From a bacterium (GTDB taxonomy: Bacteria; Actinomycetota; Acidimicrobiia; Spongiisociales; ZC4RG35): a DNA stretch of 64,000 bases. The notes beneath the pieces were generated by a model. It did no database searches. It was not told the DNA's origin and saw only the letters and a program-made list of their open reading frames with translations. Numbering within the stretch: position 1 is the first letter of the stretch; the number at the start of each line of letters is the position of its first letter. Position numbers and translations under genes: made by a program. Positions 4,543-51,840 of this stretch are shown here, in pieces. The DNA lies in assembly GCA_024638655.1 (NCBI GenBank), contig JAHEJW010000009.1, positions 1 through 64,000 of the forward strand, read 5' to 3'.

Positions 4543-5628
4543 GTGATGACTCATCAGACTGAGACGACAGAAGACAAGAAGGGGCCTGGGATCTGGTCGG
4601 CGATCGCCTATTTCGCCGGCGTTGCAGCGCTCGTCGCCGGCATATGGCTGATCGACGACCCCAGGGGCCCCGACCCCACCCTGGACGCCGCCTCTGAGTC
4701 GACAACCACCACAACCGTCGCCGAGGTCGAGGTCAACACTCCGACAGTCATCCCAGGAGACGAGCCGATTGCCGACGCCGCCGAGGTGATCCTGCCATCC
4801 GTGGTGCGAATCGAGACTCCCAGCGGAGTGGGCTCCGGTGTCATCTACGACCGCGACGGCCTCATCATGACCGCCGCTCACGTGGTCGAGGGCCACGACA
4901 CCGTCAGGGTCAGATTCGCCGACGGCACTCAGGTGGACGGCAACGTCCTCGGCGGGGTCACCGAAGTGGACATCGCGGTGATCGAAGTAGATCGGACGGG
5001 TTTGCCGGCCGCCGAGTTCACGAGGGACAAACCGCGAGTCGGTCAGACGGCCATAGCGGTGGGCAGTCCATGGGGTCTCTCCTCCACTGTGACGGCTGGA
5101 ATCATCTCCGCCGTCGATCAGACCGCAAATTGCTCACTCGGCGGGTGTGCTTCCCTGGTCCAGACCGACGCCGCCATCAATCCGGGCAACTCGGGAGGCG
5201 CGTTGGTCGATCGGTTTGGACGCGTCGTCGGCATCAACGTCTCGATCTTCAGCAGCTCCGGGGCGAACGACGGCGTGGGATTCGCCGTGCCCAGCGACAT
5301 CGCCCTCGACTACGCGGAGAGCATCGTCTCAGGTGAGCCCATCGAGACGGCCTTCCTCGGCGTCAGCGGCGGGGAGTTCAACGAAGAAGGGCGCGCCGGG
5401 GCCCTTGTGAACGCAGTCACGCCGGACACGGCCGCCGAAGAGGTAGGAATCGAAGTTGGCGACGTAATCATCTTTTTCGACGGTGTCGAGATCCAGAGTC
5501 TGTTCGATCTCAGTGCTCAGGTTCGGGCGCACCGCCCCGGCGACACGGTGCAACTCATCCTCCTGCGAGATGGCGAAGAGATCGCCCTAGAGGTGACTCT
5601 CGGCGTCAAGCCCGAGGAACTCAACTAG
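4543..5628 (+). CDS. HtrA/DegP-like trypsin-type serine protease with TM anchor and PDZ domain
   Basis: GSGVIYDRDGLIMTAAHVV (His), DIAVIEVD (Asp), DAAINPGNSGGALVD (Ser); C-terminal PDZ. Confidence 0.95.
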   Translation: MMTHQTETTEDKKGPGIWSAIAYFAGVAALVAGIWLIDDPRGPDPTLDAASESTTTTTVAEVEVNTPTVIPGDEPIADAAEVILPSVVRIETPSGVGSGVIYDRDGLIMTAAHVVEGHDTVRVRFADGTQVDGNVLGGVTEVDIAVIEVDRTGLPAAEFTRDKPRVGQTAIAVGSPWGLSSTVTAGIISAVDQTANCSLGGCASLVQTDAAINPGNSGGALVDRFGRVVGINVSIFSSSGANDGVGFAVPSDIALDYAESIVSGEPIETAFLGVSGGEFNEEGRAGALVNAVTPDTAAEEVGIEVGDVIIFFDGVEIQSLFDLSAQVRAHRPGDTVQLILLRDGEEIALEVTLGVKPEELN

Positions 5629-5631
5629 CAG

Positions 5632-5873
5632 CTAACCTCGGCGTCCCTGCCACTACCGGCAGGTGCGCTGAGAGCAGCGAAGGCCGGTTGAAATCCGGCG
5701 CTGTCCCGCAACTGTGAAGGCGTCTCTTTGGTCGACGGAGGTTCGTCGCCCGCCAGGAGCCGCACGAGCCAGGTCGCCTGAGCTCAGCGCCACGAGAAAG
5801 TCTCGGATGAAGACGGAACCGTGAGCTCAGGGAAGCCACAGACCTCTTCATCCTCCGAAACGGAGGATGTCCT
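5632..5873 (+). promoter_or_regulatory. Cobalamin (AdoCbl) riboswitch with putative SD-sequestering expression platform
   Basis: Core gaaggccggttgaaatccggcgctgtcccgcaactgtgaag (about 5679-5719) and B12-box-like cgagccaggtcgcct (5765-5779) upstream of a btuF-like gene; a perfect 9-bp hairpin catcctccg-aaa-cggaggatg (5849-5869) covers the SD of the ATG at 5874. Confidence 0.93.
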
Positions 5874-6812
5874 ATGAAGGGAGTCGCACTCGCTGCCTTG
5901 GCGGTGCTGACCCTGTCCGCCTGTGGCCTGGCCGATGGCGCTACAACTACGACCGTCCCGGGTCAGACCACCACAGCCCAGCCGGTCTACCCCGTCACCG
6001 TCACGGACGACCTCGGCGACGTTGTCATCGAGACGATGCCCCAGGCCATAATCTCGTTGTCGACTGTCGCCACCGAGATGCTCTACGAGATCGGAGCCGG
6101 CGAGCGGGTGGTAGCGGTAGACGACCAGTCGAACTACCCGGAGGAAGCTCCGATGACAGATCTCTCGGGCTTCACACCGAATCTGGAGGCGATCCTCTCC
6201 TACGAGCCGGATCTGGTGGTTATCAGCTTCGATCCGGGAGACCTGGTGTCCGGCCTCACAACAGCAGGGGTGCCCGTGATCTCGTTCGGGGCGGCAGCCA
6301 GCATCGAGGATGTCTACCGGCAGATGGAAGCTCTGGGTAGGGCCACCGGCAACCCCGAGGCTGCTCTCGAAGCGACTCAGCGGATCGAGTGGGGTCTTGC
6401 CGACGTGCTCGCCGGAGCCGGCGGCGCGGGAGTTGGCGTGTCCTATTACCACGAGATCGATTCGAACTACTACAGCGTGACATCCGCGACGCTCTTCGGT
6501 GAGATCTATGGCCTGTTCGAGATGGTCAACATCGCGGATGCGGCCGATGAGGACGGGTCAGCATTTGGATATCCCCAGCTCTCGTCGGAATACATCGTGT
6601 CCGAGGACCCGGACATCATCTTCCTGGCCAACACGCTGTATGGGGTCGATGCCGAGGATGTGGCCCAACGCCCGGGATGGGATGCGATGATCGCGGTGCA
6701 GGACGGCGCCATAGTCGAGCTCGACTCGGATGTTGCATCTCGTTGGGGGCCACGAATCGTCGACTTCGCCGAGGCTGTGGCAGCGGCCCTCAGAGAGCGC
6801 GAGCCGGCTTGA
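5874..6812 (+). CDS. btuF: Cobalamin ABC transporter substrate-binding lipoprotein (BtuF-like)
   Basis: Lipobox LTLSACGL; periplasmic-binding fold (SLSTVATEMLYEIGAGERVVAVDDQSNYPEEA); behind a cobalamin riboswitch. Confidence 0.88.
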   Translation: MKGVALAALAVLTLSACGLADGATTTTVPGQTTTAQPVYPVTVTDDLGDVVIETMPQAIISLSTVATEMLYEIGAGERVVAVDDQSNYPEEAPMTDLSGFTPNLEAILSYEPDLVVISFDPGDLVSGLTTAGVPVISFGAAASIEDVYRQMEALGRATGNPEAALEATQRIEWGLADVLAGAGGAGVGVSYYHEIDSNYYSVTSATLFGEIYGLFEMVNIADAADEDGSAFGYPQLSSEYIVSEDPDIIFLANTLYGVDAEDVAQRPGWDAMIAVQDGAIVELDSDVASRWGPRIVDFAEAVAAALREREPA

Positions 6813-7852
6813 GCGCAGCAGCCGTTCCGCCTGCGGTTCGCTCCTCGCAACTGGGTTGGGGCCCGGCTGTCATTGGAGTCGGAGTCCTGGTCGCGACGGT
6901 GATTCTCGGGCTTCTCGTCGGTGCGGCCGGGATGGGGGTTCGTCCGGTCGTGCTCGCCCTCTTCGACGTACTTCCCTTCGTGGAGGTGCAGCACGGCCTG
7001 AGCGCCGTTGAGCAAAGTGTCCTCTTCGAGATCAGGTTCCCCAGGGTCGTCCTGGGCGGCCTCGTCGGAGCGGTGCTGGCACTGGCCGGCGCCGCATATC
7101 AGGGGGTGTTTCGCAACCCTCTCGCCGACCCTTTTCTCCTCGGTGTGGCGGCCGGCTCGGGGCTCGGGGCCACCATTGCCCTGGCCTCGACCGGAAACAG
7201 TGGTCTGCTCGCACCTTTCGCTTTCATCGGCGGGCTGGCCGCGGTGGGGGCTACCTATGTCCTCGGCCGGTCCGTAGGTGGCCGGACTGCCACATCGCTG
7301 ATCCTGGCCGGAGTCGCAGTAGCTGCCTTCGCCACAGCCATCCAGACCTATCTGCTTCAGAGAAACGTCGAGAACCTGCGTGAGGTCTATTCGTGGCTCC
7401 TGGGCAGGCTGACGACGGTGGGGTGGGGGGAGGTCGTCCAGCTTCTTCCCTACGCACTGGTCTCGGGGTTGGTACTGGTTGGCAGCCGCCGTCTGCTCGA
7501 CGTTCTCTCGGTAGGTGACGAAGAGGCGGCTTCACTCGGAGTGAATGTCAACCGGGTGCGATGGACCGTGGTAGTAGCTGCCACCTTGGCGACGGCCGCT
7601 GCCGTGTCGGTCAGTGGCCTCATCGGGTTCGTCGGGATCATCGTGCCGCACACGGTCCGGATCTTGTTCGGGTGGAGCTACCGGTTGATCGTGCCCCTTT
7701 CGGTGCTTTTTGGTGCGGCCTTCTTGATGTTGGCGGACATCGCGGCTCGAACCTTGGTGACCCCCGCCGAGCTGCCTATCGGTGTCGTCACCGCCTTCTT
7801 CGGGGCGCCCTTCTTCGTGGTCGTGCTGCGAACGGTGGGGCGGGCCCCATGA
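6809..7852 (+). CDS. btuC: Cobalamin/Fe-siderophore ABC transporter permease (BtuC/FecCD family)
   Basis: TTG start overlapping btuF stop; FPRVVLGGLVGAVLALAGAAYQGVFRNPLADPFLLGVAAGSGLGA; GLIGFVGIIVPHTVR. Confidence 0.9.
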   Translation: MSAAAVPPAVRSSQLGWGPAVIGVGVLVATVILGLLVGAAGMGVRPVVLALFDVLPFVEVQHGLSAVEQSVLFEIRFPRVVLGGLVGAVLALAGAAYQGVFRNPLADPFLLGVAAGSGLGATIALASTGNSGLLAPFAFIGGLAAVGATYVLGRSVGGRTATSLILAGVAVAAFATAIQTYLLQRNVENLREVYSWLLGRLTTVGWGEVVQLLPYALVSGLVLVGSRRLLDVLSVGDEEAASLGVNVNRVRWTVVVAATLATAAAVSVSGLIGFVGIIVPHTVRILFGWSYRLIVPLSVLFGAAFLMLADIAARTLVTPAELPIGVVTAFFGAPFFVVVLRTVGRAP

Positions 7853-8625
7853 TTCGTTGGGGAGAAGTGACCGCCGCCTTCAACGGTGAGTTCACGCTGG
7901 GCCCGATCTCCGTGGAGGTTGGCGACGGCGACTGGGTCGGGCTCATCGGGCCCAACGGTGCCGGGAAGTCCACCATGCTGAAGACCGCTGTCGGCTTGGT
8001 CGATCACAAGGGTCGGATCTCTCTGACCAACGGACACCGTCGGCCCGGACTCGACATCGCCTGGATGCCGCAGCGCCCGCGCCTACCCGAGGGCATGTCG
8101 GTCGCCGATTACGTGCTCCTCGGTCGCACCCCTCACATCGGTTATCTGGGGTCGGAAGGGCGGGCCGACATCGATTCGGTGGCCGTCGCTCTCGACAAGT
8201 TGGGTCTGGGAGCCTTGGCCCATCGTCCCTTGGGGACACTCTCCGGAGGTGAGGCACAACGGGCGGTCCTTGCCCGGGCTCTGGCACAGGAGGCGCCGGT
8301 CCTCCTGCTCGACGAGCCGACGGCGAGTCTCGACATCGGGCATGCGATCGACGTCTTGGAGGTCATCGACGATCTGCGGAAGACCGAGCGCCTCACCGTC
8401 GTCACCGCTGTTCACGATTTGACTCTCGCCGGGCGATTCGCCGATCGGCTCGTCCTCCTGGCCGAGGGTGTGGTGCGGGCCGACGGCGCTCCCGCAGATG
8501 TGCTGACCGAGGAGAATCTGAAAGCTCACTACGGTGCCGGGATACGTGTCATCCACGACCCGGACGGTCCGACAGTGATCCCATCGAGAGCCTCCAGTGC
8601 CGAAGCAACAGACCCCGCCCACTAG
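7849..8625 (+). CDS. btuD: Cobalamin ABC transporter ATP-binding protein (BtuD-like)
   Basis: Walker A GPNGAGKST, signature LSGGEAQRAVLARALAQ, Walker B VLLLDEPTASLD. Confidence 0.9.
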   Translation: MIRWGEVTAAFNGEFTLGPISVEVGDGDWVGLIGPNGAGKSTMLKTAVGLVDHKGRISLTNGHRRPGLDIAWMPQRPRLPEGMSVADYVLLGRTPHIGYLGSEGRADIDSVAVALDKLGLGALAHRPLGTLSGGEAQRAVLARALAQEAPVLLLDEPTASLDIGHAIDVLEVIDDLRKTERLTVVTAVHDLTLAGRFADRLVLLAEGVVRADGAPADVLTEENLKAHYGAGIRVIHDPDGPTVIPSRASSAEATDPAH

Positions 8626-9166
8626 CCCTCCTCCCAAGGGCAACATCCGCCAGCCGTCGTTGCTCCTCGTAAACACCGGCGATGGCAAAGGGAAGTCCAC
8701 TGCTGCCTTTGGCACCGCTATGCGCGCGGTGGCGCGGGGGTGGAGGGTGGCAGTCGTCCAGTTCCTCAAGTCGGGTGAATGGCAGGTCGGGGAAGAGAAG
8801 ATCGGCCGTCGGATAGGAATCGACTGGTGGGCTCTGGGTGATGGGTTCACGTGGGATTCGACAGACATGGACGAGTCAGAGGCAATCGCCCGGGAGGCCT
8901 GGGGCGAGGCCTCGGAGAAGATCGCCGGCGGCGACTACGAACTGGTAGTCCTCGACGAGATCACCTACCCGATCAATTGGGGCTGGGTCGACCTGGAAGA
9001 AGTGATCACAACTCTGAGCCGGCGGCCATCGAAGGTCAACGTCATCATCACCGGTCGTGATGCTCCTCGAGAGATCATTGAAATCGCCGACACCGTCACC
9101 GAGATGAAGAATGTCAAGCACGCCTACGACAAAGGTGTGATGGCCCGTCGAGGCATCGACTACTGA
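8597..9166 (+). CDS. cobO: Cob(I)yrinic acid a,c-diamide adenosyltransferase (CobO/BtuR/CobA type)
   Basis: NTGDGKGKSTAAFGTAMRAVARGWRVAVVQFLKS; LVVLDEITYPINWGWV; VIITGRDAP; terminal KGVMARRGIDY. Confidence 0.95.
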   Translation: MPKQQTPPTSPPPKGNIRQPSLLLVNTGDGKGKSTAAFGTAMRAVARGWRVAVVQFLKSGEWQVGEEKIGRRIGIDWWALGDGFTWDSTDMDESEAIAREAWGEASEKIAGGDYELVVLDEITYPINWGWVDLEEVITTLSRRPSKVNVIITGRDAPREIIEIADTVTEMKNVKHAYDKGVMARRGIDY

Positions 9167-47587: not shown

Positions 47588-48355
47588 CTAGGCCGCCAGC
47601 GTGCCTCCAAACACCTGCCAGGCAAGTGCGGACTTGGCGACCAGGCTCAACAGGACGTAGGTCGACTCGCCGAACTCGTAGTTGGCCCAACGCCCGACCT
47701 GCTTGTACTGCAGCACCATGACGATCGCGAACACGTTGAAGAAGGCGAACAATGAGAAGAAGATCCCGTAGACGAACGCCGGGGGCTCTGCGGCCACCCC
47801 TGGGCTGACCAGGTAGATGGCGATGGCAATCCAGGGTATGGCTCCGGCGAGGACGCCGAACCAGTAGGAGATCCAGCTCACGTCGCCGCCCGGGCTCTCG
47901 TACTTCTCCTGGAGTAGGCCAAAGAGGATCATCGAGGCGTTCACCCCTGCGATCGCCAGCAGCGCGGCAATGTCGGCGATTCCGACCAGCATGGCTATCA
48001 GCACAACCATCACAGACGAGGAGAGGGAGTACTCGATCCACCGGGCGTAGTTGCGCTTGGTCTCGAGGTTGCGCAGATACCAGGAGTAGATGCCGGGCGT
48101 GATTATCGCGAAGTGGGCGAGGGCCGACATGAACAGGAAGATCGCCACACCCCAGGCGATGCTGATGTCGAAGAGTGGCTCGATCTCGGGTGCCGCAACC
48201 CCCGGAGGTCCGGTCATGAACGTGCCGATCACGGGCAGGGAGAAGTCGTTGGCCAGGGCGAGAACGGCGCCGCCCTGGACCGTGTGAAGGATCCCCATCA
48301 CGAGGTTGTAGATGCGGAGTCTCCCCCGACTTCGGGGCTTGGTTGTCGATGTCAT
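47588..48355 (-). CDS. Heliorhodopsin
   Basis: Hallmark segments LALANDFSLPVIGTFMTGPPG, RWIEYSLSSSVMVVLIAMLVGIADIAALLAIAGVNASMILFGLLQEKYE, and TM7 LSLVAKSALAWQVFGGTL. Retinal Lys is residue 241 by count (AAG on minus strand, 47633-47635); counterion-position Glu is E108. Confidence 0.98.
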   Translation of the reverse strand: MTSTTKPRSRGRLRIYNLVMGILHTVQGGAVLALANDFSLPVIGTFMTGPPGVAAPEIEPLFDISIAWGVAIFLFMSALAHFAIITPGIYSWYLRNLETKRNYARWIEYSLSSSVMVVLIAMLVGIADIAALLAIAGVNASMILFGLLQEKYESPGGDVSWISYWFGVLAGAIPWIAIAIYLVSPGVAAEPPAFVYGIFFSLFAFFNVFAIVMVLQYKQVGRWANYEFGESTYVLLSLVAKSALAWQVFGGTLAA

Positions 48356-48401
48356 GTGTTGGATTCGCTGCCGACGCGCATCTCAGATGAGGTCTTGGGC
48401 G

Positions 48402-49403
48402 TCATTTGTCTTCCCGGGCCCGGGCAAGCACACCAGCCGCCGCTGGCGCCACATCCTCCAGGACACTCATGAGCGCATCGATCATCAGGTCCTGAGAGTC
48501 GATTCCGTGGACCGGCAGAGTCGCCTTCTGCCAGTCGAGCATGTCTGTGACGACACCCTGATCCTCGACGAGCACCCCGGCGATGACCGAGTCGAGGGCG
48601 AGACCCAGCTCGGAGAGGACTCGGGCGTTCTTGTTCGGGGGAATCGAGTCCTCGGGAATGGCAGCCCTGGCCCTGGCCACGACCCCGGGCCATTGGTCGA
48701 TGAGGCTCTGCAACTCGGCATTGGGGCTCTTGGCGGCAGCCTCGGAGGTCTCGGGATCCGGGTTCCAGGTTTCGAGAGTCTCGGCCACCTCCTGTAGGGA
48801 GGCCACCCAACCGTCGGCCCCGATGTCCAATGCCCACCGGCCGTCTTCTCCGAAGCCGGCCCCGCCTGCGAGTACCGGTACTCCGACCTCGTGACTGGCA
48901 GCGATGGTCGCTCTCGCGCCGGGAAGGTGGGTGCTCATCGTGCATGAGAGGACCAGGGCATCGGGCTCTTCGGACTTCAGGTACTCAGCCAAGTCGGAGG
49001 CCAGCACATTGGCCCCGAGGAAAAGGGTCCTGTAGCCGAGAAACAGGAGATGGGCGGCCGTCGTCCTGGCCGGGAGCGAGTGATCGTCTCCCTCGGCGGC
49101 GGTCACCACGAAGGTCCGGGCGTCTTCCGGCTGGTCGAAAGAGCCGGCAAGTAGCGAGATGACGGTCTCGATGGCGGCGGTGGCCGCATGTTCCTCAGAG
49201 ACCAGGTAGTCGCCCTGTTGCCAACGAGTTCCCAGATCACGTTCGGCCGGGATCAGCAGGTCGAAGAGAACACGGTCGAAGCTGACGCCCTGACCGAGCA
49301 GCCCCGAGACGATGTTGTAGAGGCCCCCAGGGTCTCCGGCGAGAGCCGCCGAGGTCACGGCGAGACGCGAGGCGCTGAGGTCGGTAGCTTCCATATCGTT
49401 CAT
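48402..49403 (-). CDS. Stand-alone B12-binding photosensor-like protein (CarH/LitR-type cap + Rossmann domain, no MerR HTH seen)
   Basis: LLIPAERDLGTRWQQGDYLVSEEHAATAAIETVI has the CarH-like W-x9-EH motif; AEGDDHSLPARTTAAHLLFLGYRTLFLGANV is a B12-binding fold (degenerate DxHxxG). The ORF extends to 49598, but MNDMEATDL at 49403 avoids overlap with the divergent gene; exact start uncertain. Confidence 0.85.
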   Translation of the reverse strand: MNDMEATDLSASRLAVTSAALAGDPGGLYNIVSGLLGQGVSFDRVLFDLLIPAERDLGTRWQQGDYLVSEEHAATAAIETVISLLAGSFDQPEDARTFVVTAAEGDDHSLPARTTAAHLLFLGYRTLFLGANVLASDLAEYLKSEEPDALVLSCTMSTHLPGARATIAASHEVGVPVLAGGAGFGEDGRWALDIGADGWVASLQEVAETLETWNPDPETSEAAAKSPNAELQSLIDQWPGVVARARAAIPEDSIPPNKNARVLSELGLALDSVIAGVLVEDQGVVTDMLDWQKATLPVHGIDSQDLMIDALMSVLEDVAPAAAGVLARAREDK

Positions 49404-49523
49404 GTTTCGGATTGCCGAGGAGGCTAGCTGTCCGGCCGAACCGGTCGCCGATCGAATGATCCGGCCGAGTCCCCGGTGTCGAATATTCGGTGACACGGTC
49501 CAGACAGGAAGGGTGCGGTCGAG

Positions 49524-50993
49524 TTGAGAATCCTCGTCACAGGTGCAAGCGGGTATATCGGGGGCCGTTTGATTCCCCGACTGCTCGCCGAAGGGCATCA
49601 GGTCCGCGCCATGACACGCGATCCCAGGAGGCTCGAGTCGGACCCTTGGCGGTCGGAGGTCGAGGTCGTTCGTGGGGATGTGCTCGATCGCGACAGCCTC
49701 GAGACTGCGATGTCAGGTTGTGACGCTGCCTTCTACCTGATCCATTCCATGGATGACAGCGACGAGGACTTCCAGGAGCGCGACCGCCGCGCTGCGCAGA
49801 ACTTCGCCGACTCAGCCGCCGCAGTCGATTTGTCGAGGATCGTCTACCTCGGAGGGTTGGGGGAAGGCTCGGATCTGAGCGAGCATCTGGCCAGTCGGCA
49901 GGAGGTAGGGGAGATCCTGGCTTCCGGTCCTACTCCAGTCACAGAGCTGCGCGCCGCCGTCATCATCGGGTCCGGATCGGTCTCCTTCGAGATGCTGAGA
50001 TACCTGACCGAGGTCCTCCCGGTCATGGTGACGCCCAAATGGGTGAGGACGGTTTGCCAACCCATCGCCATCGCCGATGTCCTGAGAATCCTGATCCACG
50101 CGATCGAGGAAAGCGGCGGTGGAAGCTGGATCCGCCGCATCGGCGGACCCGACCGGCTGACCTACGAGCAGATGATGCGGATCTACGCGGAGGTGGCCGG
50201 CCTGCCCAGACGTCTGATCGTTCCCGTGCCCGTGCTGTCGCCAAAGCTCTCCTCCCACTGGGTCGGCCTCGTCACCCCACTCCCTACGGGTGTCGCCAAG
50301 CCGCTAGTCGAGAGTCTGCGAGTGGAAGTGAGTGTTGAAGACAACAGCTACGCAGAGGAAGTCGTCGGGGATCTCATGGGGTATCGAGAGGCTGTCACCC
50401 GAGCTCTCGATCACGCCAACAGCCGCGACGTCGCGACGCGCTGGTCGGACACTGCCGAATCACCGGCGCGGTCTCTACCCGGGGATCCCGAATGGGCAGG
50501 AGGCTCGGTCCTCGTCGACCTCCAGTCGACTACCTCCAAGGCAAGCCCTGACGACCTCTTCTGGGCCTTCGCACGCATAGGCGGGACCTTCGGGTATTAC
50601 ACGATGAACTGGGCGTGGGCGCTACGCGGCCTGATTGACTCGCTGGTCGGCGGGGTGGGTTTGAGGCGAGGGAGACGCCACCCGGAGGAGATCCGCCAGG
50701 GCGAGGCGCTCGACTTCTGGCGAGTCGTCGAAGTCGTACCGGGCCGACGTCTGCAGCTCTATGCGGAAATGCGGCTGCCCGGCGAGGCATGGCTCACGTT
50801 CACCGCGGAGCCCGACGAGGGTGGGAGCAGGCTCGAGCAGAAGGCGGTTTTCGTGCCGCGCGGTCTCCTTGGCCGGCTCTACTGGTGGGCGATGCTGCCT
50901 TTCCACGTGGCGATCTTCAGGGTCATGGCCGAACGCATAGCACGTGCCGCAGAGACAAGACGCTCCGAGACGAGCATCGAGCTGCCCGGGTGA
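49524..50993 (+). CDS. NAD(P)H-binding SDR-type protein with C-terminal DUF2867-like domain
   Basis: TTG start; MRILVTGASGYIGGRLIPRLLAEGHQVRAMTRDPRRL; C-terminal GFYTMNWAWALRGLIDSLVGGVGLRRGRR...FWRVVEVVPGRRLQLYAEMRLPGEAWLTF...RGLLGRLYWWAMLPFHVAIFRVMAERI-type segment. Confidence 0.9.
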   Translation: MRILVTGASGYIGGRLIPRLLAEGHQVRAMTRDPRRLESDPWRSEVEVVRGDVLDRDSLETAMSGCDAAFYLIHSMDDSDEDFQERDRRAAQNFADSAAAVDLSRIVYLGGLGEGSDLSEHLASRQEVGEILASGPTPVTELRAAVIIGSGSVSFEMLRYLTEVLPVMVTPKWVRTVCQPIAIADVLRILIHAIEESGGGSWIRRIGGPDRLTYEQMMRIYAEVAGLPRRLIVPVPVLSPKLSSHWVGLVTPLPTGVAKPLVESLRVEVSVEDNSYAEEVVGDLMGYREAVTRALDHANSRDVATRWSDTAESPARSLPGDPEWAGGSVLVDLQSTTSKASPDDLFWAFARIGGTFGYYTMNWAWALRGLIDSLVGGVGLRRGRRHPEEIRQGEALDFWRVVEVVPGRRLQLYAEMRLPGEAWLTFTAEPDEGGSRLEQKAVFVPRGLLGRLYWWAMLPFHVAIFRVMAERIARAAETRRSETSIELPG

Positions 50994-51628
50994 TCATCGA
51001 GACAATCCCTGCCCGAGAGGCGGAAGCCGGTCTCGGGGCAATATCATCAATGATCGATGTCCAACGCTCTGCGCTCTTGACCGTGCCCAACCCGCGTGAC
51101 GCCGAGCTCGCCGCCGGGGTGGGCTCACGCGATCGGACCTCGCTCGAGCTCGCGTTCAAAGAGCATGGCGCAGCGGTGAAGGGTGTGGCCTGGAGAGTCC
51201 TCAAGGACGAGAATCTCGCCGAGGACATCGTCCAGGAGACCTTCGTCACCTTTTGGGACAGTCCCGACAAATACGACTCGTCGCGGGGAACCCTGCGCAC
51301 CTTCCTTCTCACCATCGCCCACCGGAAGTCGGTGGACGTGGTGAGGTCGGAAGTAGCCCGGACGCGAAGAGAACAGAGACCGCCAGACCCGATTCACCAC
51401 GACGTCGAGGAGGAGGTCTGGTCCCGAGACCTCTCTGACACGGTCCGGAACGCGCTTATGGAACTGGCCGAAGGAGAGAGGGAGGCCATAGCACTGGCTT
51501 ACTACGGGGGTCTCAGTTACGTCCAGGTCGCCGAGCGGCTCGGCCTCCCCGAGGGAACGGTCAAGAGCCGTATCAGAGCAGGTATGAAGAAGCTCTCACG
51601 AAGCCTCAGTGGGGCCGAATCGGAATGA
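50990..51628 (+). CDS. ECF RNA polymerase sigma factor
   Basis: Sigma2 EDIVQETFVTFWDSPDKYDSSRGTLRTFLLTIAHRKSVDVVR; sigma4 LAYYGGLSYVQVAERLGLPEGTVKSRIRAGMKKL. GTG start overlaps the previous stop; ATG at 51050 is an alternative. Confidence 0.94.
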   Translation: MIIETIPAREAEAGLGAISSMIDVQRSALLTVPNPRDAELAAGVGSRDRTSLELAFKEHGAAVKGVAWRVLKDENLAEDIVQETFVTFWDSPDKYDSSRGTLRTFLLTIAHRKSVDVVRSEVARTRREQRPPDPIHHDVEEEVWSRDLSDTVRNALMELAEGEREAIALAYYGGLSYVQVAERLGLPEGTVKSRIRAGMKKLSRSLSGAESE

Positions 51629-51840
51629 ACCACGATGCGGCTCTCGAGCTGTTGCCACTCTTCTCCTTGCATGCCCTGGATGAGGCCGGTGCTCGCGCCG
51701 TGGAAGTCCACGTCGCAGTCTGTCCGGTCTGCCGGAGTGAATTGGCCGGGTATGCCGCAGTGACCGAGGCGCTCAGTGGAGAGCTCGAACCGGGCCCTGA
51801 AGTCTGGCCCTCCATAGTGGCCCGAATCGGCGTCGTCTAG
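51625..51840 (+). CDS. Short zinc-finger anti-sigma factor (ZAS motif)
   Basis: 71 aa; ELLPLFSLHALDEAGARAVEVHVAVCPVCRSELAGY with H-x3-C-x2-C; ATGA overlap with the sigma gene. Confidence 0.85.
   Translation: MNHDAALELLPLFSLHALDEAGARAVEVHVAVCPVCRSELAGYAAVTEALSGELEPGPEVWPSIVARIGVV

Follow-up and report, generated by a model that had tools for sequence, protein, structure and literature searches.

The locus described here raises the question of which cellular programme employs a heliorhodopsin (HeR) whose gene lies next to genes for a B12-type photoreceptor and a sigma factor. It is located in a contig of an Acidimicrobiia genome, within the window, i.e. the whole stretch of 64,000 nucleotides that was analyzed. 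The gene itself is as follows:

47588..48355, (-) strand: HeR gene, 255 aa, ATG at 48355; K241, E108, H24, H81 and S237

The original prediction, made from the nucleotide sequence, identified this ORF as an HeR; profile searches, phmmer, fold comparison and phylogeny all agree with that assignment. The encoded protein matched the Pfam family Heliorhodopsin (PF18761; E-value 8.1e-98, 327 bits, 242/242 profile positions covered) and the NCBIfam HeR equivalog NF038020 (322 bits), for which the curated cut-offs are 26.7 and 100 bits, respectively. The retinal Lys (K241, within VAKSALAWQ) and the TM3 counterion Glu (E108, within RWIEYSLSSS) are placed as originally counted, and both residues, together with H24, H81, W106 and S237, are invariant in an alignment of 16 HeR sequences. 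The proposed likeness to 48C12 was confirmed by a phmmer search of the PDB (6su3, 2.3e-77; TaHeR, 6is6, followed at 1.2e-59), as well as by a structural model derived from these relatives (pLDDT 77, i.e. moderate confidence), whose best Foldseek match was also 6su3 (TM 0.82).

A maximum-likelihood tree was calculated from 87 HeRs, with no type-1 rhodopsin as outgroup. In it the protein was nested inside the heliorhodopsins and formed a clade with three HeRs from the same family (support 99/90), apart from the branches of 48C12 and TaHeR. Its named close relatives are Acidimicrobiia MAGs. This is the sole HeR of the genome, in which no type-1 rhodopsin (PF01036) was found. The same tree contained HeRs from six MAG contigs titled as Bifidobacterium breve group (L127, L134, L142, L143, L159 and L172); these branch as freshwater actinobacterial HeRs, and the titles look wrong. 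It is practically certain that the gene encodes an HeR, and its product is an unexceptional new addition to the heliorhodopsins. The protein shares with 48C12 (PDB 6su3/6uh3) full-length homology, the retinal Lys, the counterion Glu and the fold, but differs from it in clade and in its neighbours, which comprise a photocobilin and a SigK-type module. This neighbourhood, on which the original prediction did not remark, is more informative than the gene itself. Its features, and a distant group of B12-related genes in the same window, are:

48402..49403, (-) strand: photocobilin homologue, 333 aa, with B12-binding_2, B12-binding and C-terminal globin-type bilin domains
49524..50993, (+) strand: fusion of an NAD(P)-binding SDR with DUF2867 (listed with a TTG start, although its real start is uncertain)
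50990..51628, (+) strand: ECF sigma factor with its best match to SigK (NCBIfam PRK09646, 7e-44; PDB 4nqw, 5e-25)
51625..51840, (+) strand: short RskA-like anti-sigma factor, 71 aa, zf-HC2
5623..9166, (+) strand: cobalamin riboswitch (5623-5795), BtuF/C/D-type transporter and corrinoid adenosyltransferase

The photocobilin gene is located 46 bp upstream of the HeR gene, on the same strand. Its product aligned end to end with SasPcob (8j2w; phmmer 4e-40, profile 6e-69), and the top five Foldseek matches of its AF2 model (pLDDT 94) were SasPcob and AbPcob (8j2w/8j2y) over the full length (E 9e-20, TM 0.83-0.87). Residues W61, E71, H72, H108 and W291 correspond to W61, E71, H72, H108 and W296 of SasPcob, the first four of which lie in the AdoCbl pocket of that protein (residue roles from PMC10979010); all five, as well as E265, are invariant in ten photocobilin orthologues. 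The B12 domain motifs GxxW (G58-W61), EH (E71-H72) and GxxH (G105-H108) are likewise present and invariant in the ten orthologues. The GxxxP motif, one element of the light-responsive CarH signature (PMC11796333), is not conserved in the window photocobilin (GANVL, with L for P) and is kept in 4/9 orthologues. On the basis of sequence and modelling, the protein encoded by 48402-49403 is a photocobilin-type B12 photoreceptor with putative bilin binding.

Compared with SasPcob and AbPcob (8j2w, 8j2y; PMC10979010), the protein has the same order of B12 and globin-type bilin domains, the same W/E/H/H residues and an equivalent of W296. It differs in the position of the bilin-contact Asp270 of SasPcob, which is Glu265 here (Glu in all ten orthologues) and His in the weak binder AbPcob, and in adjoining an HeR, a neighbour unmentioned in the main text of PMC10979010. 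It shares the B12 light-sensing module with CarH/LitR, but has no N-terminal MerR-type DNA-binding domain and scores 46 bits against a CarH equivalog cut-off of 400; no output domain is present. The genes at 5623..9166 are likely to secure the supply of AdoCbl for the photocobilin. Heme oxygenase (PF01126) was considered as a source of bilin; none was found in the genome by a search whose control was positive, which leaves bilin loading of the photocobilin without support.

The sigma factor of the divergent operon matched PRK09646 with 149.7 bits, under the curated cut-off of 226, and is described here as closest to SigK. The accompanying anti-sigma factor ends after its sigma-binding zinc-finger part, whereas the RskA proteins of relatives are 232-263 aa long and carry membrane and C-terminal (RskA_C) parts; thus, no membrane-bound RskA is encoded together with the window sigK. 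Since the N-terminal cytoplasmic part of RskA suffices to inhibit SigK in mycobacteria (PMC7509140), the 71-aa form could still act as an anti-sigma factor, but a cytosolic one. The truncated gene and the convergent gene of an aldehyde dehydrogenase are separated by 2 bp. The similarity to the mycobacterial SigK-RskA system (PMC7509140) includes the sigma factor, the RskA carried by relatives, and, in the vicinity of the sigma factor, genes for fasciclin, FAD oxidoreductase, DUF1365 and cyclopropane-synthase-type proteins. The differences are the anti-sigma factor cut down to its cytosolic domain and a regulon that appears to take in HeR and photolyase-type genes. In M. kansasii, light raises the SigK-type fasciclin genes mpk83 and mpk70 (PMC9861118).

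A de novo dyad search of the upstream regions of HeR and B12 neighbourhoods identified a motif of the form ATCC...CG[A/T]A, more fully TCATCC-N17-CG[A/T]A, whose spacer is nearly always 17 bases long. The mycobacterial SigK promoter consensus is probably close to CCATCC-N16-CCGAAT, which the de novo motif, written as TCATCC-N16-CCGAAT, would resemble. With spacers of 16-17 bases, the motif precedes 11/83 HeR genes, compared to 21/1225 other genes (1.7%; Fisher 1.5e-6, a p value that, like any other for this motif, is optimistic because this upstream set had also served to derive the motif), and it is also present before 4/17 ECF, 4/4 FAD-oxidoreductase and 4/5 DUF4397 genes. In control searches at HeR genes, the reversed pattern was found in 0/86 cases and the antisense strand gave 2/86.

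Within the genome itself, a pattern search yielded 26 strict sites, compared to 6 for the reversed control. These sites precede the SDR-DUF2867 gene of the window, DUF4397, fasciclin and epimerase genes and a TM-TM-DPRP photolyase-related operon; the main photolyase is encoded on contig C58, a few genes away from further motif sites. A full-length RskA homologue is also encoded on C58 (L210:16508-17212), with a 20-bit motif site and no obvious sigma factor neighbour. A pair of tiny membrane proteins (L215:3906-4300, L217:3940-4385 and L214:5541-5935) is encoded upstream of HeR in two genomes and, in the genome of the window, upstream of the DPRP photolyase-related gene, in the latter case with a 21.5-bit motif site. 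The sites identified around the HeR locus are:

49457..49483, (+) strand: ECF/SigK-type promoter site TGATCC-N17-CGAA before the SDR-ECF operon; 16.95 bits (scored from 49455), the top score of both window strands
49481..49514, (-) strand: weaker ECF-type site before the photocobilin gene; 9.0 bits; it overlaps the palindrome CGAATATTCG that the divergent site has at its -10
48364..48388, (-) strand: SigK/ECF-type promoter-like site ATCT-N17-CGAA before the HeR gene; 5.96 bits

The motif shared by the sigma factor operon is strong, whereas that of HeR is conserved in position in this clade and degenerate in the window. The strict form (ATCC) is absent before the window HeR, which has a one-mismatch form (ATCT) in the -35 part; its three closest orthologues, L066, L068 and L069, have ATCC at this site. 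By score alone the window site is unremarkable, with 35 sites equal or better in 128 kb, and as evidence it is weak on its own; its first base is located 33 bases before the ATG in 4/4 members of the HeR clade, a position that it shares with L066, L068 and L069. A scan of the HeR region for sigma-70 promoters found none. In its clade, HeR probably belongs to the SigK-type regulon.

The distribution of HeR and B12 photosensors was compared in 201 genomes of the class, i.e. almost every genome that had some B12-type match, with photosensors defined by a best E-value of at most about 1e-36. This analysis revealed an association (counts 51/32/23/95; OR 6.6, p 1e-9) that was retained after stratification by family (OR 4.8, CMH p 4e-4), with phylogenetic dependence remaining within families. 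It was also observed in all 247 genomes (p 3e-5), including those of the streamlined family f12 (roughly 1 Mb), in which HeR is present and no B12 photosensor was found. The two genes lie no more than 3 kb apart in six genomes (G000, G012, G020, G100, G151 and G218), compared to 0.14 expected; when the genome of the window is excluded, the probability of at least five adjacent pairs is 4e-7. The adjacent pairs occur in separate HeR clades.

Outside the class, in Chloroflexota, a MerR-B12 protein and a photolyase (L117) and an XRE-B12 protein (L113) are encoded near HeR, while an HTH_17-like B12 sensor, an ECF sigma factor, DUF1365 and an FAD oxidoreductase are encoded near HeR in a MAG titled Armatimonadetes (L135). 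The B12-sensor neighbour of HeR recurs while its architecture changes (HTH_17, MerR, XRE). The protein of the Dehalococcoidia contig (L113:3-896) has an unusual architecture, with B12-binding domains followed by a C-terminal Cro/C1-type HTH. In two further genomes (L094 and L095, from G050 and G037, respectively), an HTH-B12 photosensor gene is flanked by two glutamine synthetase genes, of interest given the reported binding of HeR to glutamine synthetase; an ECF/anti-sigma pair (G037) or an anti-sigma gene (G050) is also located beside this photosensor.

The best explanation for these observations, which we regard as fairly probable, is that a retinal-binding HeR is produced within a regulon for light and photo-oxidative stress that depends on a SigK-type ECF sigma factor. 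Against it count the mismatch and low score of the window HeR site, the loss of the GxxxP element, the negative searches for heme oxygenase and blh, and the many HeR genomes, those of family f12 for example, that have no B12 photosensor. That the photocobilin serves as the input to this sigma factor is suggested by gene position only, and is put forward tentatively. Somewhat more doubtful is the complete scheme, a three-chromophore module in which the B12/bilin photocobilin would control SigK via the soluble truncated anti-sigma factor, with HeR among the genes switched on. According to such a scheme, AdoCbl bound to the photocobilin would be photolysed and the protein would change its oligomeric state; this change would free SigK from the anti-sigma factor, directly or indirectly, and the released SigK would transcribe the SDR-DUF2867 gene, its own gene, the HeR gene and, elsewhere in the genome, photoprotective genes. 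Once it has bound scavenged retinal, HeR might then act as a slow second light sensor tuning a membrane or enzyme partner, a role we infer by analogy with other HeRs that bind or tune proteins encoded by neighbouring genes.

The source of retinal bears directly on this reading. The original prediction had noted the lack of blh in the window; this holds, and it extends to the whole genome (93% complete), in which no BCD/blh (PF15461) was found, nor was it found in 60 relatives. Because the search, when repeated over the class, detected BCD in 3/247 genomes, this absence is meaningful within the limits of 93% completeness, and blh was rejected as the retinal source. A carotenoid cluster was considered for the one squalene/phytoene-synthase-like (SQS_PSY) match, located on another contig (G000:C31), and was also rejected: the match is weak and squalene-synthase-like, and it adjoins a weak HpnE-like protein. 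The same absence of BCD, found with a search able to detect it elsewhere in the class, would be expected if the organism made no retinal and its HeR worked retinal-free, either in its apo form or bound to a different ligand. We consider this very unlikely, since strict conservation extends over K241, E108 and the residues of the retinal site; moreover, the search covered BCD alone among the cleavage enzymes, which also include the carotenoid oxygenases (PF03055), in a genome that is 93% complete, and HeRs of hosts that make no retinal themselves probably take up exogenous retinal. In two of the three blh-bearing genomes (L218 from G093 and L219 from G191) blh adjoins a B12-photosensor gene, and in L218 it is also located next to a lycopene cyclase gene; these relatives may regulate their retinal synthesis by way of B12 light sensing.

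The proximity of the HeR and photocobilin genes, found again as the same gene pair in G012, could also indicate a direct partnership, in which membrane HeR and soluble photocobilin form a two-colour signalling unit (retinal plus B12/bilin) and are not linked only via SigK. Such a partnership has precedents, since neighbour-encoded partners bind HeR in other species (PMC9769723, PMC11109279) and HeR pairs elsewhere with photolyase, glutamine synthetase or ABC transporters. However, HeR and photocobilin are encoded on different contigs in G005 and G026, two of the four genomes of the clade, and the varying architecture of the B12 sensors found near HeR speaks against a single conserved interface between the proteins, so we judge this alternative improbable. 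Still less probable is that a sunlit lifestyle is all that HeR and B12 photosensors share, with incidental clustering and an unrelated membrane function of HeR. Both genes are patchy in their distribution and common in aquatic Actinobacteria and Chloroflexota, as this would predict, but the association survives family stratification, adjacent pairs exceed expectation in separate HeR clades, and HeR carries the promoter motif of the regulon. Production of HeR within the SigK-type regulon is the reading that we retain.

HeR genes that have photolyase, SDR, MerR regulator or Sigma70 genes as neighbours were already on record (PMC11109279, PMC8612252, PMC12008989), and part of the reported HeR-MerR group may be CarH-like. 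In the main texts of the open-access literature, nothing was found that links HeR with B12 photoreceptors, photocobilins or SigK; the B12/photocobilin link, the SigK identity and the shared promoter motif distinguish the present locus from the HeR operon groups (PMC11109279) and contexts (PMC8612252, PMC12008989) described in the text searched. Glutamine synthetase, an HeR partner in other Actinobacteria, was considered and is not encoded adjacent to the window HeR. It is the context, rather than the protein, that is new: a photocobilin and a SigK-type ECF module around an HeR.

For the function of HeRs, the promoter motif together with the recurrent B12-photoreceptor neighbours provides a specific, testable assignment, to a SigK-type light-stress regulon. 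If the three-chromophore module were true, the HeRs of this group would gain a defined place in the photo-oxidative stress response, and SigK-family sigma factors would gain a light input. These results suggest that light may be among the signals to which SigK systems respond, in keeping with the induction of SigK-type genes by light in M. kansasii (PMC9861118).
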